Below are positions 26,485 through 32,816 of a stretch of DNA of 33,817 nucleotides, piece by piece. This DNA comes from Acidobacteriota bacterium (GTDB taxonomy: Bacteria; Actinomycetota; Actinomycetes; S36-B12; CAIYMF01). Within the stretch, counting starts at the first letter, position 1. Every line of letters starts with the position of its first letter. A model generated the notes under the pieces. That model was not told where the DNA came from, searched no databases, and saw nothing but the letters and a program-made list of their open reading frames with translations. Where the stretch lies: NCBI GenBank assembly GCA_025449595.1, contig JANWJC010000027.1, positions 1 to 33,817 of the forward strand, in the 5' to 3' direction. Both the position numbers and the translations under genes were made by a program.

Positions 26485-26586
26485 GGCTGCGGCGCTCTGT
26501 ACGCTGACCGTGTCGCACCGCCCCCTCGACGTACGACTCGTCGCGCACGCAGGGCCTTGGCGCGCGACGCGAGCTCGGGAGATCCC

Positions 26587-27690
26587 TTGTCGCCCACCGA
26601 CAGATCGCCGGCCACCGACGCCGACGCGCTGATGCGGGCTGCCATCGCTCAGGTGGCACCTGGCACGTTGCTGCGCGACGGGCTCGAGCGGATCCTGCGC
26701 GGGCGCACCGGCGGCCTTGTCGTCCTCGGGTTCGACCGTACCGTCGAGGCGATGTCGACCGGCGGGTTCGCCATCGACGTCGAGTTCACCGCCCAGCGAC
26801 TGCGCGAGCTGTCCAAGATGGACGGCGCCGTGATCTGCGACAAGGACGCGACGAAGCTGCTGCGCGCCGCGGTGCAGCTGCTCCCGGACCCGTCGATCCC
26901 CACGGACGAGCAGGGCACCCGCCACCGCACCGCTGACCGGGTGGCCAAGCAGACCCCGTTCGTGGTCGTCAGCGTCAGCAAGTCGATGAACACCATCGCG
27001 TTGTACGTCGGCAGCCGGCGCTACGTCGTCGAAGGGTCGGCCGCGATCTTGTCGCGGGCCAACCAGGCGCTGGCCACCCTGGAGCGCTACAAGATGCGTC
27101 TGGACGAGGTCAACGGCACGCTGTCCGCGCTGGAGATCGAGGACCTCGTAACGGTCCGCGACGTGGTCAACGTCGTCCAGCGCCTGGAGATGGTGCGGCG
27201 CATCTCCGGGGAGATCGACGACTACGTCGTGGAGCTCGGGACCGACGGCAGGCTGCTGACCCTGCAGCTCGACGAGCTCGTCGCGGGCGTGGATGCCGAA
27301 CGAGCCCTTGTCGTACGCGACTACGCCCCCGCGACCACCGGTCGCCGCGGCAACGCCGTCGCCTCGGTGTTCGACGAGGTGGACGCCCTGTCGGGTACGG
27401 ACCTGATCGACCTGCCGCTGGTGGCCCGCGCGGTCGGGCTGGGCGCGAGCAACGACGCGCTCGACCAGCCCGTCAGCCCGCGCGGCTTTCGGCTCATGGC
27501 GCGGGTGCCCCGGCTGCCGGAGGTCGTCGTCGAGCGTCTCGTCGAGCACTTCGGGGGGCTGCAGAAGCTGCTCGCGGCCAACATCGACGAGCTGCAGGCG
27601 GTCGAGGGCGTCGGCGAGACGCGGGCCCGCTCCATCCGCGAGGGTCTGAGCCGGCTGGCGGAGTCCAGCATCCTCGAGCGCTACGTCTGA
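26587..27690 (+). CDS. disA: DNA integrity scanning protein DisA / diadenylate cyclase
   Basis: DGA (KMDGAVICDKD) and RHRTADR active-site motifs, C-terminal HhH; TTG start at 26587. Confidence 0.97.
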   Translation: MSPTDRSPATDADALMRAAIAQVAPGTLLRDGLERILRGRTGGLVVLGFDRTVEAMSTGGFAIDVEFTAQRLRELSKMDGAVICDKDATKLLRAAVQLLPDPSIPTDEQGTRHRTADRVAKQTPFVVVSVSKSMNTIALYVGSRRYVVEGSAAILSRANQALATLERYKMRLDEVNGTLSALEIEDLVTVRDVVNVVQRLEMVRRISGEIDDYVVELGTDGRLLTLQLDELVAGVDAERALVVRDYAPATTGRRGNAVASVFDEVDALSGTDLIDLPLVARAVGLGASNDALDQPVSPRGFRLMARVPRLPEVVVERLVEHFGGLQKLLAANIDELQAVEGVGETRARSIREGLSRLAESSILERYV

Positions 27691-27710: not shown

Positions 27711-28184
27711 CTAGCTCTGGACCAGGACCGACGACCCGAGGGCCGGACCCGTGGCGGGTTCGTACGCCGGATCACCGATGGCCGGCACCCGGGGCAGGTC
27801 GACGAGCAGCATCGGGGTGCCGCCCTCGGCCGGGCGCAGCACGGCACTGGCGTACGAAGGGAGCGCCGGACCCGTGGCGGGGTCGAGGATCAACGCTCCT
27901 GGGCGCTGCACCGAGGTCACCCGGTCCACGAGCAGCCCTACCTGGTCCTCGTAGCGCGGCACGATCAGGTCACCGACGACCGTGGGTTCCGAGCGCAGGT
28001 CCAGCACGGGGACCGAGGCGCCGCGGACGTCGACGAGGCAGAGCTCGCGCCCGGACAGCGTGCGACCGCTGCCGGGAAGCCTCCGTACCTCGCTGGCGCG
28101 CAGCACCTCCATCACGTCGGCCACGTCGACGGCGAACGACGTCCTGCCGACCTCGAACGTCAGATGCCCTCCCACGTCAGACAT
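27711..28184 (-). CDS. cheW: CheW-like chemotaxis coupling protein
   Basis: LTFEVGRTSFAVDVADVMEVLR, LPGSGRTLSGRELCLVDVRGASVPVLDLR, VGLLVDRVTSV. Confidence 0.88.
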   Translation of the reverse strand: MSDVGGHLTFEVGRTSFAVDVADVMEVLRASEVRRLPGSGRTLSGRELCLVDVRGASVPVLDLRSEPTVVGDLIVPRYEDQVGLLVDRVTSVQRPGALILDPATGPALPSYASAVLRPAEGGTPMLLVDLPRVPAIGDPAYEPATGPALGSSVLVQS

Positions 28185-28280
28185 GCCTGCCTCCTTCCCG
28201 GGCCTGGACCGCAGCGTGCTCCTGGGAAGGATCGGTCGTCCGGGGGCCCGGCCTGAGGGGCCAGGTGCCGCCGTACGCCG

Positions 28281-29717
28281 TCATCGGGCGGCCGCCCGGT
28301 GATCGCACTCCTCGGCGAGGCGGCGGCACAGCGTCACCAGCTCGGCCACGTCGCAGCCGTCGAGGAGGGCGTTGAGGTCCGCCGGCGAGGTGCCGGGCAG
28401 GGTCGCGGCCGCCGCCCGGTACTCCCGGGCCGCTGCACCGGGCTCGGCGCACCGGGCCAGCGCCCCGGCCAGCAGGAAGCGGGCATGTCCGGCGCGAGGT
28501 GAGAGATACACCGCCTTGCGCAGCGCGACGAGCGCGCCGGGGTCGTCGCCGACCGTCGCGCGCGCCTGGCCCTCCACGACGTACGCGTCGACCTCGAACG
28601 GCGAGGCGGCGGCGGCGCGCGCGGCCAACCGGGCCGCTTCGGAGTACCTGGCCTGCTCCATCGCGGTCCGCGCGTCCTTCAGCAGCGACGTCGCGGCGTC
28701 GGGGTCGGGCATCGTGTCCAACGGGTCCGGCTCGGGGCGCACCGCGGCGCGCACCCGCTTGGCCCGCGCCGGCCTTGTGGGGCGGGGGGCCGGTGGCGCG
28801 GCCCGCGGGACCGGCCGCTGCGGGGGGGCCGGCTTGGGGGAGGTCGTGGCCGGCACGTCCTTGCGGTACGCGAACGCGTCGCCGAGCGTCACGAGCGTGA
28901 AGTCTTCGGTGACCTGCCAGAGCGTCTCGGCGTGACCGATGACCAGGTAACCACCGGGGGCCAGGACGCGGTGGAACGTCGCGATGAGCTCGCTCATCGT
29001 GTCCCGGGAGAAGTAGATCGTGACGTTGCGGCACACGATGAGGTCCGCCTGCCCGCGGTCGAGCGGCGGGTCGTCGGTGACGAGGTTGTGCAGCCGCGCC
29101 GTGACGACGTCGCGTACCTCCGCCGCGACCTCGTGGACGCCAGCTCCGCGCGGGGTGAACCAGCGCTCGACCTGCGCAGGGGTTGCGAACGACAGCGACC
29201 GCCCGGAGTACCGGGCCTGCTTCGTGGCGGCCACGGCGACGGAGGAGACGTCGGTGGCCAGGATCCGTACCTCCGGGGCGGTCGGCAGCCCGGTCGCCGC
29301 CTCGGCGGCCAGGATCGCCAGAGAGTACGGCTCCTCCCCGCTGGAACAGCCCGCGCTCCAGACAGTCAGCGGCCGGCCGCGGGACACGGCGCGACGCATC
29401 AGCTCGGGCAGCAGCCGGTCGCGCAGCGCGATCATCTGTGGTGGGTTCCGGAAGAAGTGGGTCTCCGGGATGGTGACGTCGTCGAGCAGGTGCTGGCGCT
29501 CGTCTGCCCCGTCGGGCGCCGCGATCCGCGCGAGGTAGGCACCCAGGTCCGCCGCGCCGGTGTGCGCGAGGCGGTCGGCCACGACCGCGCTGAGCGCCGC
29601 GCGCCGGCTCACGTCGAAGACCAGTCCGGCCTCCCGCGCGAGGTAGCCGGACAGGGCGGCGTACTCCCCGTCACTCAACGTGCGGCTCCGGGACAGCGCA
29701 CCAGCGACGGTGGTCAC
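28281..29717 (-). CDS. cheR: CheR-type chemotaxis methyltransferase with C-terminal TPR-like region
   Basis: TIPETHFFRNPPQM, VWSAGCSSGEEPYSLAIL, LIVCRNVTIYFSRDTM; Pro/Arg-rich linker then TPR-like helices. Confidence 0.94.
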   Translation of the reverse strand: MTTVAGALSRSRTLSDGEYAALSGYLAREAGLVFDVSRRAALSAVVADRLAHTGAADLGAYLARIAAPDGADERQHLLDDVTIPETHFFRNPPQMIALRDRLLPELMRRAVSRGRPLTVWSAGCSSGEEPYSLAILAAEAATGLPTAPEVRILATDVSSVAVAATKQARYSGRSLSFATPAQVERWFTPRGAGVHEVAAEVRDVVTARLHNLVTDDPPLDRGQADLIVCRNVTIYFSRDTMSELIATFHRVLAPGGYLVIGHAETLWQVTEDFTLVTLGDAFAYRKDVPATTSPKPAPPQRPVPRAAPPAPRPTRPARAKRVRAAVRPEPDPLDTMPDPDAATSLLKDARTAMEQARYSEAARLAARAAAASPFEVDAYVVEGQARATVGDDPGALVALRKAVYLSPRAGHARFLLAGALARCAEPGAAAREYRAAAATLPGTSPADLNALLDGCDVAELVTLCRRLAEECDHRAAAR

Positions 29718-30877
29718 GGCGAATCGGCCCCCAGAATCCGTCTGACCGACACGGCCACCCGCGGCGCGATGTCGTCCAGGGCCAGCTCGATGCTGACGGC
29801 GTCCAGGGCCCGGGCCGCGCCGGGCATGCCCCAGACCGCCGAGCTCTGCTCGTCCTGCCCGATGGTGACCGCGCCCTGCTGGCGCATCTCGAGCAGGCCG
29901 GCCGCCCCGTCGCGACCCATTCCGGTCAACAGGACCCCGATCGCATTGGGGCCACAGGCCTGCGCCACGTTGTGGAACGTGATGTCCACCTCGGGGACGT
30001 GCAGCTGCCCGGGGCGCGGCTCGGTCAGGCGCACCCGGAGGCCCGGACCGAGCTCGAGGTTGGCACCGCTGGGTGCGAGCAGCACGTGACCGGCACGAAG
30101 CCGCTCACCGTGCGCCGCCACCGAGACCGGGGCGGCGATCGTGGCGTCGAGCCAGGCGGCGAGGCTGGCAACGAAGCCTTCGGCCATGTGCTGGACGATG
30201 AGGACGGCAGCGGGCAGGTCGGCCGGCAGTCCCGCGAGCACCGCCGCCAGCGCGGGAGGTCCGCCGGTGGACGCGCCGATCGCGACGACGGGCAGCAGGT
30301 CGGTGCTCCGCGCAGTGGCCGGCGTACCGCTGCGCCGGCGGGCGGGCTCGTGGCCGGCCGCGACGCTGTCGGCAGCAGGCCCACCGGGCCCGGACGTACG
30401 TCCCCGCGCTCGGTCCCGCAACCGGCCCCGGGGGTGCGTGATGACTCGGACGCGACTGGCGAAGAGCAGCTGACGGGCCAACAGGTCCCCGTACGCGGCC
30501 GAACCGAGTGCTTCCGCGGTCGAGGCGATCACGTCGACCGCGCCACCGGCGATGGCCTCGTCCGGGTCCTGGGCCGCCGCCCCGGTGAGCACGATCGGCA
30601 GTGGGCACCTGGCCATTACCTGCTCCACGACCTCCAGGCCACCGGCACCGGACGCCAGGTCGAGCAGGATCACGCGTGGTCGGTGGTCGGCGATCAGGGT
30701 CTGGACTTCGTCGGGGTCCCGGGCCGCGCCGCAGACGTTCAGCCCTCGGTCGGTGAGCAGCTGGGCCAGGCGGACCTGCCGCGTCCCCGCGGCCACGATC
30801 ACCACGGACAGCGCGACGTCGACCGTCTGCGGGGCCCACGGCGTCGTGGTCACGACCGGTTGCGCCGCAGGCTGCAC
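29714..30877 (-). CDS. cheB: CheB-type chemotaxis protein-glutamate methylesterase
   Basis: Catalytic motifs IGASTGGPPAL, IVQHMAEGF, LLTGMGRDGAAGL; N-terminal receiver-like domain; stop overlaps cheR start (GTGA). Confidence 0.93.
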   Translation of the reverse strand: MQPAAQPVVTTTPWAPQTVDVALSVVIVAAGTRQVRLAQLLTDRGLNVCGAARDPDEVQTLIADHRPRVILLDLASGAGGLEVVEQVMARCPLPIVLTGAAAQDPDEAIAGGAVDVIASTAEALGSAAYGDLLARQLLFASRVRVITHPRGRLRDRARGRTSGPGGPAADSVAAGHEPARRRSGTPATARSTDLLPVVAIGASTGGPPALAAVLAGLPADLPAAVLIVQHMAEGFVASLAAWLDATIAAPVSVAAHGERLRAGHVLLAPSGANLELGPGLRVRLTEPRPGQLHVPEVDITFHNVAQACGPNAIGVLLTGMGRDGAAGLLEMRQQGAVTIGQDEQSSAVWGMPGAARALDAVSIELALDDIAPRVAVSVRRILGADSP

Positions 30878-30967
30878 CGACGCACCTCTTCTACTCGCCC
30901 CCCGACGAACCGGCGATGCTCGCCGCTCGACGACGCGTCTGCCTCGCACCCTGTCAGTCGGCGCGTC

Positions 30968-31031
30968 GGGGCCGGCGCTTGAGTTCGGCCGGCCGTCCCG
31001 GGGCCGGCGCATGAGCAGGCCGGCCCGTCCC
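30968..31031. repeat. 32-bp GC-rich tandem repeat x2 (plus partial third copy to about 31052) upstream of cheB
   Basis: ggggccggcgcttgagttcggccggccgtccc / ggggccggcgcatgagcaggccggcccgtccc. Confidence 0.8.
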
Positions 31032-31068: not shown

Positions 31069-31737
31069 TCAGGTGAGTGAGAACGGGGCCGGTGCCGAAC
31101 TTACGTTCCCGTTGCGGCCGATGAGCGTGTACGACCCTGCGCTCGCGGCGGGCTGGTTCGCCGGGCAGCCCTGCGCCGAGGCACGGCCGGGCCAGGTGAC
31201 GCTGACTGAATACGACTGGCCGGCGGCGATCGTGGCCGGGCCCGCCGCCCCGCCGGGACTGCAGTCGTCACTGGACCAGAACTTCGTGCCGCCCTTGTTG
31301 ATGATCAGAGTGTTGGGCAGCGCGCCCACGTCGCGCACGCAGGCGTGCGACGAGGTGTTCGTGATCTGCATCCGCAGCTTCGGCGTCGACCCGACCGGAT
31401 AGGTGGCCGCGTCCGTGGATGCGGTGACCGAGATGTCGGAGTCCTTGCACTTCGGGGTCGTGGCGGTCGGCGTGCTCGTCGGGGTCTTGCTGGGGGCAGC
31501 GGATTCCTGCTTCGTCGGGGTCGCCGACGGGGTGGGGGTCGCGGACTGCTTCGAGGCCGAGGGAGTGGGTGAGGCGGACACCGAGGGGCTCGCGACCGGC
31601 GCCGTACCGCCGCTGCGGCCCCCGATGAGCCACACCGCTCCGCCGATGATGAGGACCACGACGATCGCGACCAGGACCCGGCGCACCCAGTAGACGCTCG
31701 GGGGCTGCGGCCCGACCGGGTGGATCACATGGCTCAC
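31069..31737 (-). CDS. Membrane-anchored extracytoplasmic protein with Ser/Thr/Pro-rich linker
   Basis: Single TM VLVAIVVVLIIGGAVWLIGG, STP linker, C-terminal beta-rich domain with Cys residues. Confidence 0.88.
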   Translation of the reverse strand: MSHVIHPVGPQPPSVYWVRRVLVAIVVVLIIGGAVWLIGGRSGGTAPVASPSVSASPTPSASKQSATPTPSATPTKQESAAPSKTPTSTPTATTPKCKDSDISVTASTDAATYPVGSTPKLRMQITNTSSHACVRDVGALPNTLIINKGGTKFWSSDDCSPGGAAGPATIAAGQSYSVSVTWPGRASAQGCPANQPAASAGSYTLIGRNGNVSSAPAPFSLT

Positions 31738-31811: not shown

Positions 31812-32816
31812 GTGACGCGAGCCCACCGCCCTCCGGACCCGTCCGGAGCCGTGCCGGAACGGGCCGAGCGCGTCGTCGCCGAGGTCCTGGGCTGGTACGC
31901 CGGCCATCAGCGAGACCTGCCCTGGCGAAGCGCGGACCGCACCCCTTGGGGAGTGCTGGTCAGCGAGGTCATGCTGCAGCAGACGCCGGTGGACCGCGTC
32001 GTCCCGTACTGGACGAGCTGGTTGCAGCGCTGGCCCACGCCGAGGCGGTTGGCCGGGTCCACCACGGCCGACGCCGTCCGGGCGTGGGGCCGGCTGGGCT
32101 ACCCGAGGCGGGCGCTACGACTGCACGCGGCGGCGCTCGCGTGCGTGGAGCGGTTCGGCGGCGCGGTGCCGTCCTCGTACGAGGACCTGCGGACCCTGCC
32201 CGGCGTCGGTGACTACACGGCGGCTGCCGTGGTGGCGTTCGGCTTCGGCGGCGCAGCGGTCGTGCTGGACACGAACGTGCGTCGGGTGCTGGCCCGGGTC
32301 TTCGTCGGGCGGGCCCTGCCCGGGCCGTCGGTGACGGTGGCCGAACGGGTGCTCGGCGCAGCGGTGCTGCCCGTGGGCCCGCGGGTCGCCGCGACCTGGT
32401 CCGTCGCCGTCATGGAGCTCGGCGCCCTGGTCTGCACGGCGAGATCACCGGACTGCGGTGGTTGCCCGATCGCGCCGGACTGCCGTTGGTTGGCCGCGGG
32501 CAGCCCGCCGGCGCAGGGTCCGGCCCGGCCGACGCAGCGCTTCACCGGCACCGACCGGCAGGTTCGGGGCCTGCTGCTTGCCGTGCTGCGCGAGGACGAC
32601 GCGGCTGTGCCCTCCCACCGGCTCGACACGGTGTGGCCCGACCCGGTGCAGCGGGACCGTGCCCTGGCCACGCTTGTGGCCGACGGGCTGGCCGAGGCGC
32701 TGCCCGGGGGTACGTACCAGCTGCCTCAGCGCGGGTCGCGCCACAGGGTGTCGACGGTCGGGCCGTCGTACGGCAACGAGAACCTGTCCACGCGGCGAAA
32801 GCCCACCGACTCATAG
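31812..32816 (+). CDS. mutY: A/G-specific adenine glycosylase
   Basis: VSEVMLQQTPVDRVVPYW, LPGVGDYTAAAVVAF, FeS cluster CTARSPDCGGCPIAPDC. Confidence 0.95.
   Translation: MTRAHRPPDPSGAVPERAERVVAEVLGWYAGHQRDLPWRSADRTPWGVLVSEVMLQQTPVDRVVPYWTSWLQRWPTPRRLAGSTTADAVRAWGRLGYPRRALRLHAAALACVERFGGAVPSSYEDLRTLPGVGDYTAAAVVAFGFGGAAVVLDTNVRRVLARVFVGRALPGPSVTVAERVLGAAVLPVGPRVAATWSVAVMELGALVCTARSPDCGGCPIAPDCRWLAAGSPPAQGPARPTQRFTGTDRQVRGLLLAVLREDDAAVPSHRLDTVWPDPVQRDRALATLVADGLAEALPGGTYQLPQRGSRHRVSTVGPSYGNENLSTRRKPTDS

Follow-up and report, generated by a model that had tools for sequence, protein, structure and literature searches.

A cheB-cheR-cheW module beside disA and mutY as the probable adaptation half of a two-locus chemosensory system in actinobacteria

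The chemosensory class scheme of Wuichet and Zhulin reportedly includes a class designated ACF, for alternative cellular function. CheR proteins carrying TPRs (CheR-TPR) associate with ACF pathways, and REC-GAF is among the multidomain response regulator architectures listed for the class, while the phyla listed as having CheR-TPR do not include Actinobacteria (PMC3447774). A CheA that carries a receiver is known from F3, F5, ACF and Tfp systems (PMC10782961), and a 2023 survey of the phylum found ACF systems in no more than six species (PMC10746217). One would not generally expect signalling by receptor methylation in actinobacteria that lack flagella, and in the open-licence literature we found no description of disA with cheW or of the che genes of such organisms.

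The window, by which we mean the whole stretch of 33,817 nucleotides that was analysed, contains three che genes transcribed in the order cheB, cheR, cheW from the minus strand (approximately 30883-27711). The features of the region are as follows.

disA, 26557..27690, plus strand: DAC, DisA-linker and HHH domains, all present by Pfam; convergent neighbour, outside the proposed system
cheW, 27711..28184, minus strand: second, divergent coupling protein (PF01584, 48.8 bits; alignment with the core CheW)
cheR, 28281..29717, minus strand: methyltransferase with C-terminal TPRs (PF01739, 163.9 bits)
cheB, 29714..30883, minus strand: degenerate receiver and intact methylesterase domain (PF01339, 190.6 bits; matches solved CheB structures)
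222-aa membrane-anchored protein gene, 31069..31737, minus strand: co-directional, upstream of cheB, outside the proposed system
mutY, 31812..32816, plus strand: conserved flank

The cheB and cheR genes overlap by 4 bp, and cheW and disA converge with a gap of 20 bp between them. The start codon of cheB is uncertain (GTG at 30877 or ATG at 31012), and the Pfam match to its receiver is weak (22 bits, under the Pfam cut-off). Beyond mutY there is a GNAT-like gene followed by the end of clpC, and the other larger ORFs of the window belong to ordinary metabolic, cytochrome c assembly, tetrapyrrole and transport families (Pfam scan). An earlier, sequence-only reading of this DNA had described three che genes in one direction between disA and mutY, and Pfam and the coordinates agree with that description. 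It had also noted the lack of cheA, cheY, receptor and flagellar genes in the window, and when the larger coding ORFs were scanned with Pfam, none matched CheA, CheY, a receptor or a flagellar protein. The 222-aa gene, which sits between cheB and mutY, was omitted from that reading.

The sequence-only reading had suggested looking elsewhere for cheA and receptor genes, and a cheA, a core cheW and MCPs are indeed present in the source genome (72.8% complete, 228 contigs). Besides the window, there are CheW-family matches on contigs C156 and C64. C156 ends within cheA and C64 starts within it, the two contig ends have 127 identical bases in common, and reading across the join yields a single CheA of 767 aa in which one HPt, the ATPase, one CheW domain and then a receiver follow one another (Pfam run on an orthologue). 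The gene order at this second locus is ftsH-like protease, DUF6113, cheW, MCP, cheA, a response regulator (REC-GAF), flavin reductase and a VanW-like protein, and by eye the key REC and HPt residues of CheA and the regulator are intact. In the operon MCP about five hydrophobic helices stand out clearly, with little space for an external domain, and inspection by eye finds no C-terminal pentapeptide at its end. Its HAMP-to-tip distance is 159 against 143 in the 36H receptor Tsr, which is approximately two heptads longer on the measured side, and its alignment with the aromatic acid receptor 6s18 needs almost no gaps; together, the longer signalling helix and the near-gapless alignment suggest that it belongs to a class of about 40H. 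Two further MCPs are encoded on C10 and C86, and these could use the same Che proteins. In several other families the cheA operon holds a tandem pair of MCPs, of which one is conserved and the other divergent (L301 12022-13584 and 10299-11996; also L302, L303, L309 and L315). The gene for an FtsH-like M41 protease that precedes the cheA operon (for example L048 6699-8771) lies beside mshB in che-less genomes too.

We consider it likely, judging from gene content and genomic context, that cheB-cheR-cheW constitutes the adaptation (receptor methylation) half of a system whose signalling half is the ftsH-DUF6113-cheW-MCP-cheA(:CheW:REC)-RR(REC-GAF) locus, because both halves lie in the same genome, are found together from genome to genome, hold constant positions and are lost together. 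Among the 17 genomes of the window's family, orthologues of the window CheB and of the second-locus CheA are found together in nine (G000, G001, G002, G008, G011, G012, G013, G015 and G016, with the CheB of G012 counted from a contig-end fragment only) and both are missing from the other eight; identities are 54-63% for the complete CheB orthologues and 60-69% for CheA. In the class, for which 148 mostly draft assemblies were sampled, 31 of 33 genomes with the window-type CheB also have the second-locus CheA, against none of 18 control genomes, several of which carry a more distant CheA instead; the exceptions, with CheB but no CheA found, are G098 (95% complete) and G136 (78% complete). This co-occurrence is in part a matter of shared descent. 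The two sites can also be seen empty: disA, the 222-aa gene and mutY stand together without che genes in G004, G005, G009, G014 and G020, and ftsH, DUF6113 and vanW do so in G005, G010 and G014. In a tree of DisA, RadA, MutY and ClpC, G005, G009 and G014 together, and G010 separately, nest among che-bearing genomes, so that, if this quick neighbour-gene tree is right, both loci have been lost together at least twice. All of these results are computed, and the trees throughout are quick ones.

The arrangement around the module is older than the sequence-only reading, which had the module inserted between disA and mutY, would imply. The CheB orthologue group, which is set off by a score gap of approximately 165 versus 133 bits, is found in about 35 of the 148 class genomes. 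At the 33 loci outside the family, mutY adjoins the module or lies near it in 29; in the remaining four the 222-aa gene is the last on its contig (one), clpC is present with no mutY match (G089), or the contig ends within cheB (two). On the other side of the module disA is found at 22 of the 33 loci, the remainder being mostly contig ends, and it is beside the module in three genomes of the family. In all, the arrangement covers 14 family-level groups, the window's family and 13 further ones, and in the tree of the CheB esterase domain and CheR a single branch separates each listed group from the rest. Class signalling loci that reach far enough likewise keep the order mshB-ftsH-...-cheW-MCP-cheA-RR. 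If horizontal transfer had recently placed the module between disA and mutY in the window's lineage, the relatives with an empty site would be accounted for, but such an insertion would have to explain the same site in all 14 groups with a gene tree that matches them, and the nesting of che-less genomes among che-bearing ones, and we regard it as extremely improbable. Given its recurrence in 14 family-level groups and the agreement of the gene tree with these groups, the arrangement is, as far as synteny and trees can tell, old and vertically inherited rather than inserted, the che-less nested relatives representing losses. Both halves hold fixed places in many actinobacterial families, apparently mostly uncultured ones, and apparently did so in their common ancestor.

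The CheB of this family combines an unaltered esterase with a receiver that differs markedly between groups. The catalytic motifs GxSTGG, QHM and TGMGxDG are found in all orthologues that reach them, with one QHI variant. In the window and its family, the acidic pair of the receiver is replaced by A, G, S or T, the lysine is missing and only the Asp is retained, so the residues of a phosphorylatable receiver are not all present. The canonical receiver (DD, D, K) is found in groups f16, f17, f19, f21, f27 and f38, and the receiver is partly altered in f15 and f36. The window's family (f1) and groups f14, f26, f29, f30 and f33 have no lysine and a lost or broken acidic pair, with catalytic motifs unchanged; several members of f14 retain one acidic residue. 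On a tree made without the receiver columns this degeneration maps to one change on a well supported branch. CheB subtypes without a receiver are known, and missing receiver residues do not exclude a protein from the CheB family. It might be argued that the degenerate receiver marks a dying system, of which the lost residues and at least two whole-system losses would be the signs. We think this most improbable, since the catalytic motifs are invariant across the degenerate clade, the frames are open throughout, and the degenerate receiver has been kept as a conserved domain in six family-level groups since the one change. The sequence-only reading was thus correct in calling the CheB atypical, and also in assigning TPRs to CheR: there are two to three of these, under the Pfam cut-off, and both the predicted fold and profile comparison with TPR structures support them. 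The window CheW, when aligned with the core CheW of the second locus, is the divergent one, and in the window's family its beta4-beta5 region is only a few residues shorter; an identification of it as a FrzB-like second CheW was rejected on this alignment. In G001 there is another CheB-domain gene beside an opposite-strand CheR gene (L045 6673-9722), of a type unlike the window pair.

Compared with described systems, the proposed one shares features with several. Like Frz of Myxococcus xanthus it would have a CheA:REC hybrid, a CheR-TPR, two CheW proteins and independence of the flagellum, but the receptor here is predicted to be membrane-embedded and not cytoplasmic, the regulator is REC-GAF rather than REC-REC, and the second CheW lacks the 20-aa (beta4-beta5) deletion of FrzB. 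Wsp of Pseudomonas, to which the sequence-only reading had likened the module, has a CheR-TPR and, as here, a hybrid CheA; as the operon described here has REC-GAF and no REC-GGDEF regulator, Wsp is a loose analogue only. The Tfp class differs in that several Hpt domains are present there and a single one here, where in addition no pilus genes are linked in the flanks read. As predicted from domain content, the parts list resembles that of ACF (PMC3447774), with a CheR-TPR, a C-terminal REC on CheA, a multidomain response regulator (REC-GAF), no flagella and no FlhA, although the genes here are divided between two loci with fixed housekeeping neighbours and the CheB receiver is degenerate in one clade. 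The ACF system of Actinoplanes (PMC10746217) is also actinobacterial, with a REC-length tail on CheA and a long CheR; however, cheA, cheB and cheR lie within one fetched locus there and are split over two here, and the CheAs are of separate lineages. In a CheA tree that included loci fetched from other phyla, and no class-labelled references, the second-locus CheA family forms one fully supported lineage apart from the Actinoplanes and alphaproteobacterial CheAs. On the same tree, the che clusters of two records titled Akkermansia muciniphila and Klebsiella pneumoniae (L139 and L178) group with environmental or proteobacterial MAGs, and these are probably mislabelled bins. F3 of the Campylobacterota (PMC9321776) likewise pairs a CheA that has a receiver with a CheB that has no working one, but F3 has cheVAW, serves flagella and lacks the CheB receiver altogether, whereas here the receiver is present and degenerate. 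F5, found in later actinobacterial classes (PMC10746217), has cheB and cheR adjacent but a CheA with two CheW domains (one here), 38H receptors (a length of about 40H being suggested here) and an AW...BR cluster.

A plausible mechanism is that the core CheW and CheA assemble into an array with the membrane receptor, which would be about 40H long and have several membrane helices but no large external domain, and that the methylation of this receptor is adjusted by CheR-TPR and CheB. CheA would pass phosphate to the REC-GAF regulator and to its own REC, the latter probably serving as a phosphate sink. In the clade to which the source genome belongs, where the CheB receiver would not be phosphorylatable, we infer that CheA no longer switches demethylation on, and that adaptation may be constitutive or may operate through protein contacts, either of the CheR TPRs or of the second CheW. 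The output would be something other than flagella in the source genome as assembled, with type IV pili, cell polarity or envelope, and gene regulation as candidates.

As to flagella, no flagellar export gene was found in the source genome at its 72.8% completeness, and this incompleteness is what would allow the module to be the ordinary adaptation genes of flagellar chemotaxis, the flagellar genes lying in the unassembled quarter. The pattern in the family makes such a role very unlikely. FlhA is missing from eight of the nine che-bearing members, near-complete ones included, and is found only in G008 and G014; of these, G014 lacks the two-locus system and has its own distant CheA, and G008 has both FlhA and the two-locus system but carries additional distant copies of CheA and CheB. 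The earlier view that the module stands closer to alternative-function than to flagellar systems is upheld by the CheR-TPR, the REC-GAF regulator and the FlhA pattern. A complete flagellar chemotaxis cluster, with disA-cheW synteny confined to this strain, had been named as the outcome that would speak against that view, and what we see is the reverse, with no flagellar export gene found and the synteny widespread.

Control of type IV pili, in twitching or pilus polarity and in the manner of Frz or Pil-Chp, is a more serious candidate. T2SSE-type ATPases including a PilB-like one (G000:C49:1033-2193; one per genome) are present in 17 of 17 family genomes, flagella are absent from most of them, and the parts list is similar to that of Frz. 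A second T2SSE ATPase is mostly close to the PilB-like one, and type IV pili look universal in the family. The same pilus ATPases are nevertheless present in the che-less relatives, no pilus genes are found in the flanks read at either che locus, and CheA has a single Hpt. A pilus output is thus possible and is not favoured by co-occurrence, and on balance we think it rather unlikely; it concerns the output of the system and is compatible with a division into an adaptation and a signalling locus.

Going further, we tentatively suggest, as something short of an even prospect, that the two loci represent an undescribed actinobacterial chemosensory class, non-flagellar and already present in the ancestor of a large part of the Actinomycetia, in one clade of which a single ancient loss of the receiver would have freed the methylesterase from the kinase, giving adaptation without phospho-feedback. 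Roughly one in four of the sampled class genomes carries a complete che set in fixed places. Which process is under its control without a flagellum, and how an array adapts with a CheB that cannot be phosphorylated, are testable questions, for which the canonical and degenerate CheB proteins within one orthologous family offer a natural comparison.

The proximity of disA had raised the possibility, which the sequence-only reading itself called speculative, of a functional link with DisA and c-di-AMP. That reading had proposed a search for disA-cheW synteny in relatives, and the neighbourhood does recur in many families; the 22 class loci and three family genomes with disA beside the module are what would be expected if the che genes acted with DisA in c-di-AMP signalling. 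Yet disA and cheW are convergent in every pair measured, and domain scans report no c-di-AMP domain for the Che proteins. The neighbourhood of radA, disA, the 222-aa gene, mutY and clpC also persists in che-less relatives, and since this region is stable without che genes the adjacency need not reflect a shared function. G015 and G016 retain the module, but there other genes and then glgA/glgC come after cheW in place of disA. We therefore find the link unsupported and hold it to be highly improbable. A PF00724 flavin oxidoreductase gene follows disA in G002, G011, G013, G015 and G016, and in G011 it adjoins both disA and cheW; in G008 there is an extra gene between disA and cheW (the coordinates L038 5579-6328 and L094 8755-9888 cover the disA-side extras).

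The side of the module that is most consistently kept, and co-directional with it, is not disA but the 222-aa gene with mutY, and conservation of the 222-aa gene beside mutY extends across families. A role for the 222-aa protein as a component of the system was considered and rejected, as it matched no Pfam or NCBIfam family, its fold is a generic beta-sandwich only, and it is kept in che-less genomes. The protein itself (31069-31737) has one membrane helix, a linker rich in Ser, Thr and Pro, and a beta-sandwich domain for which the closest short structure is 3isy.
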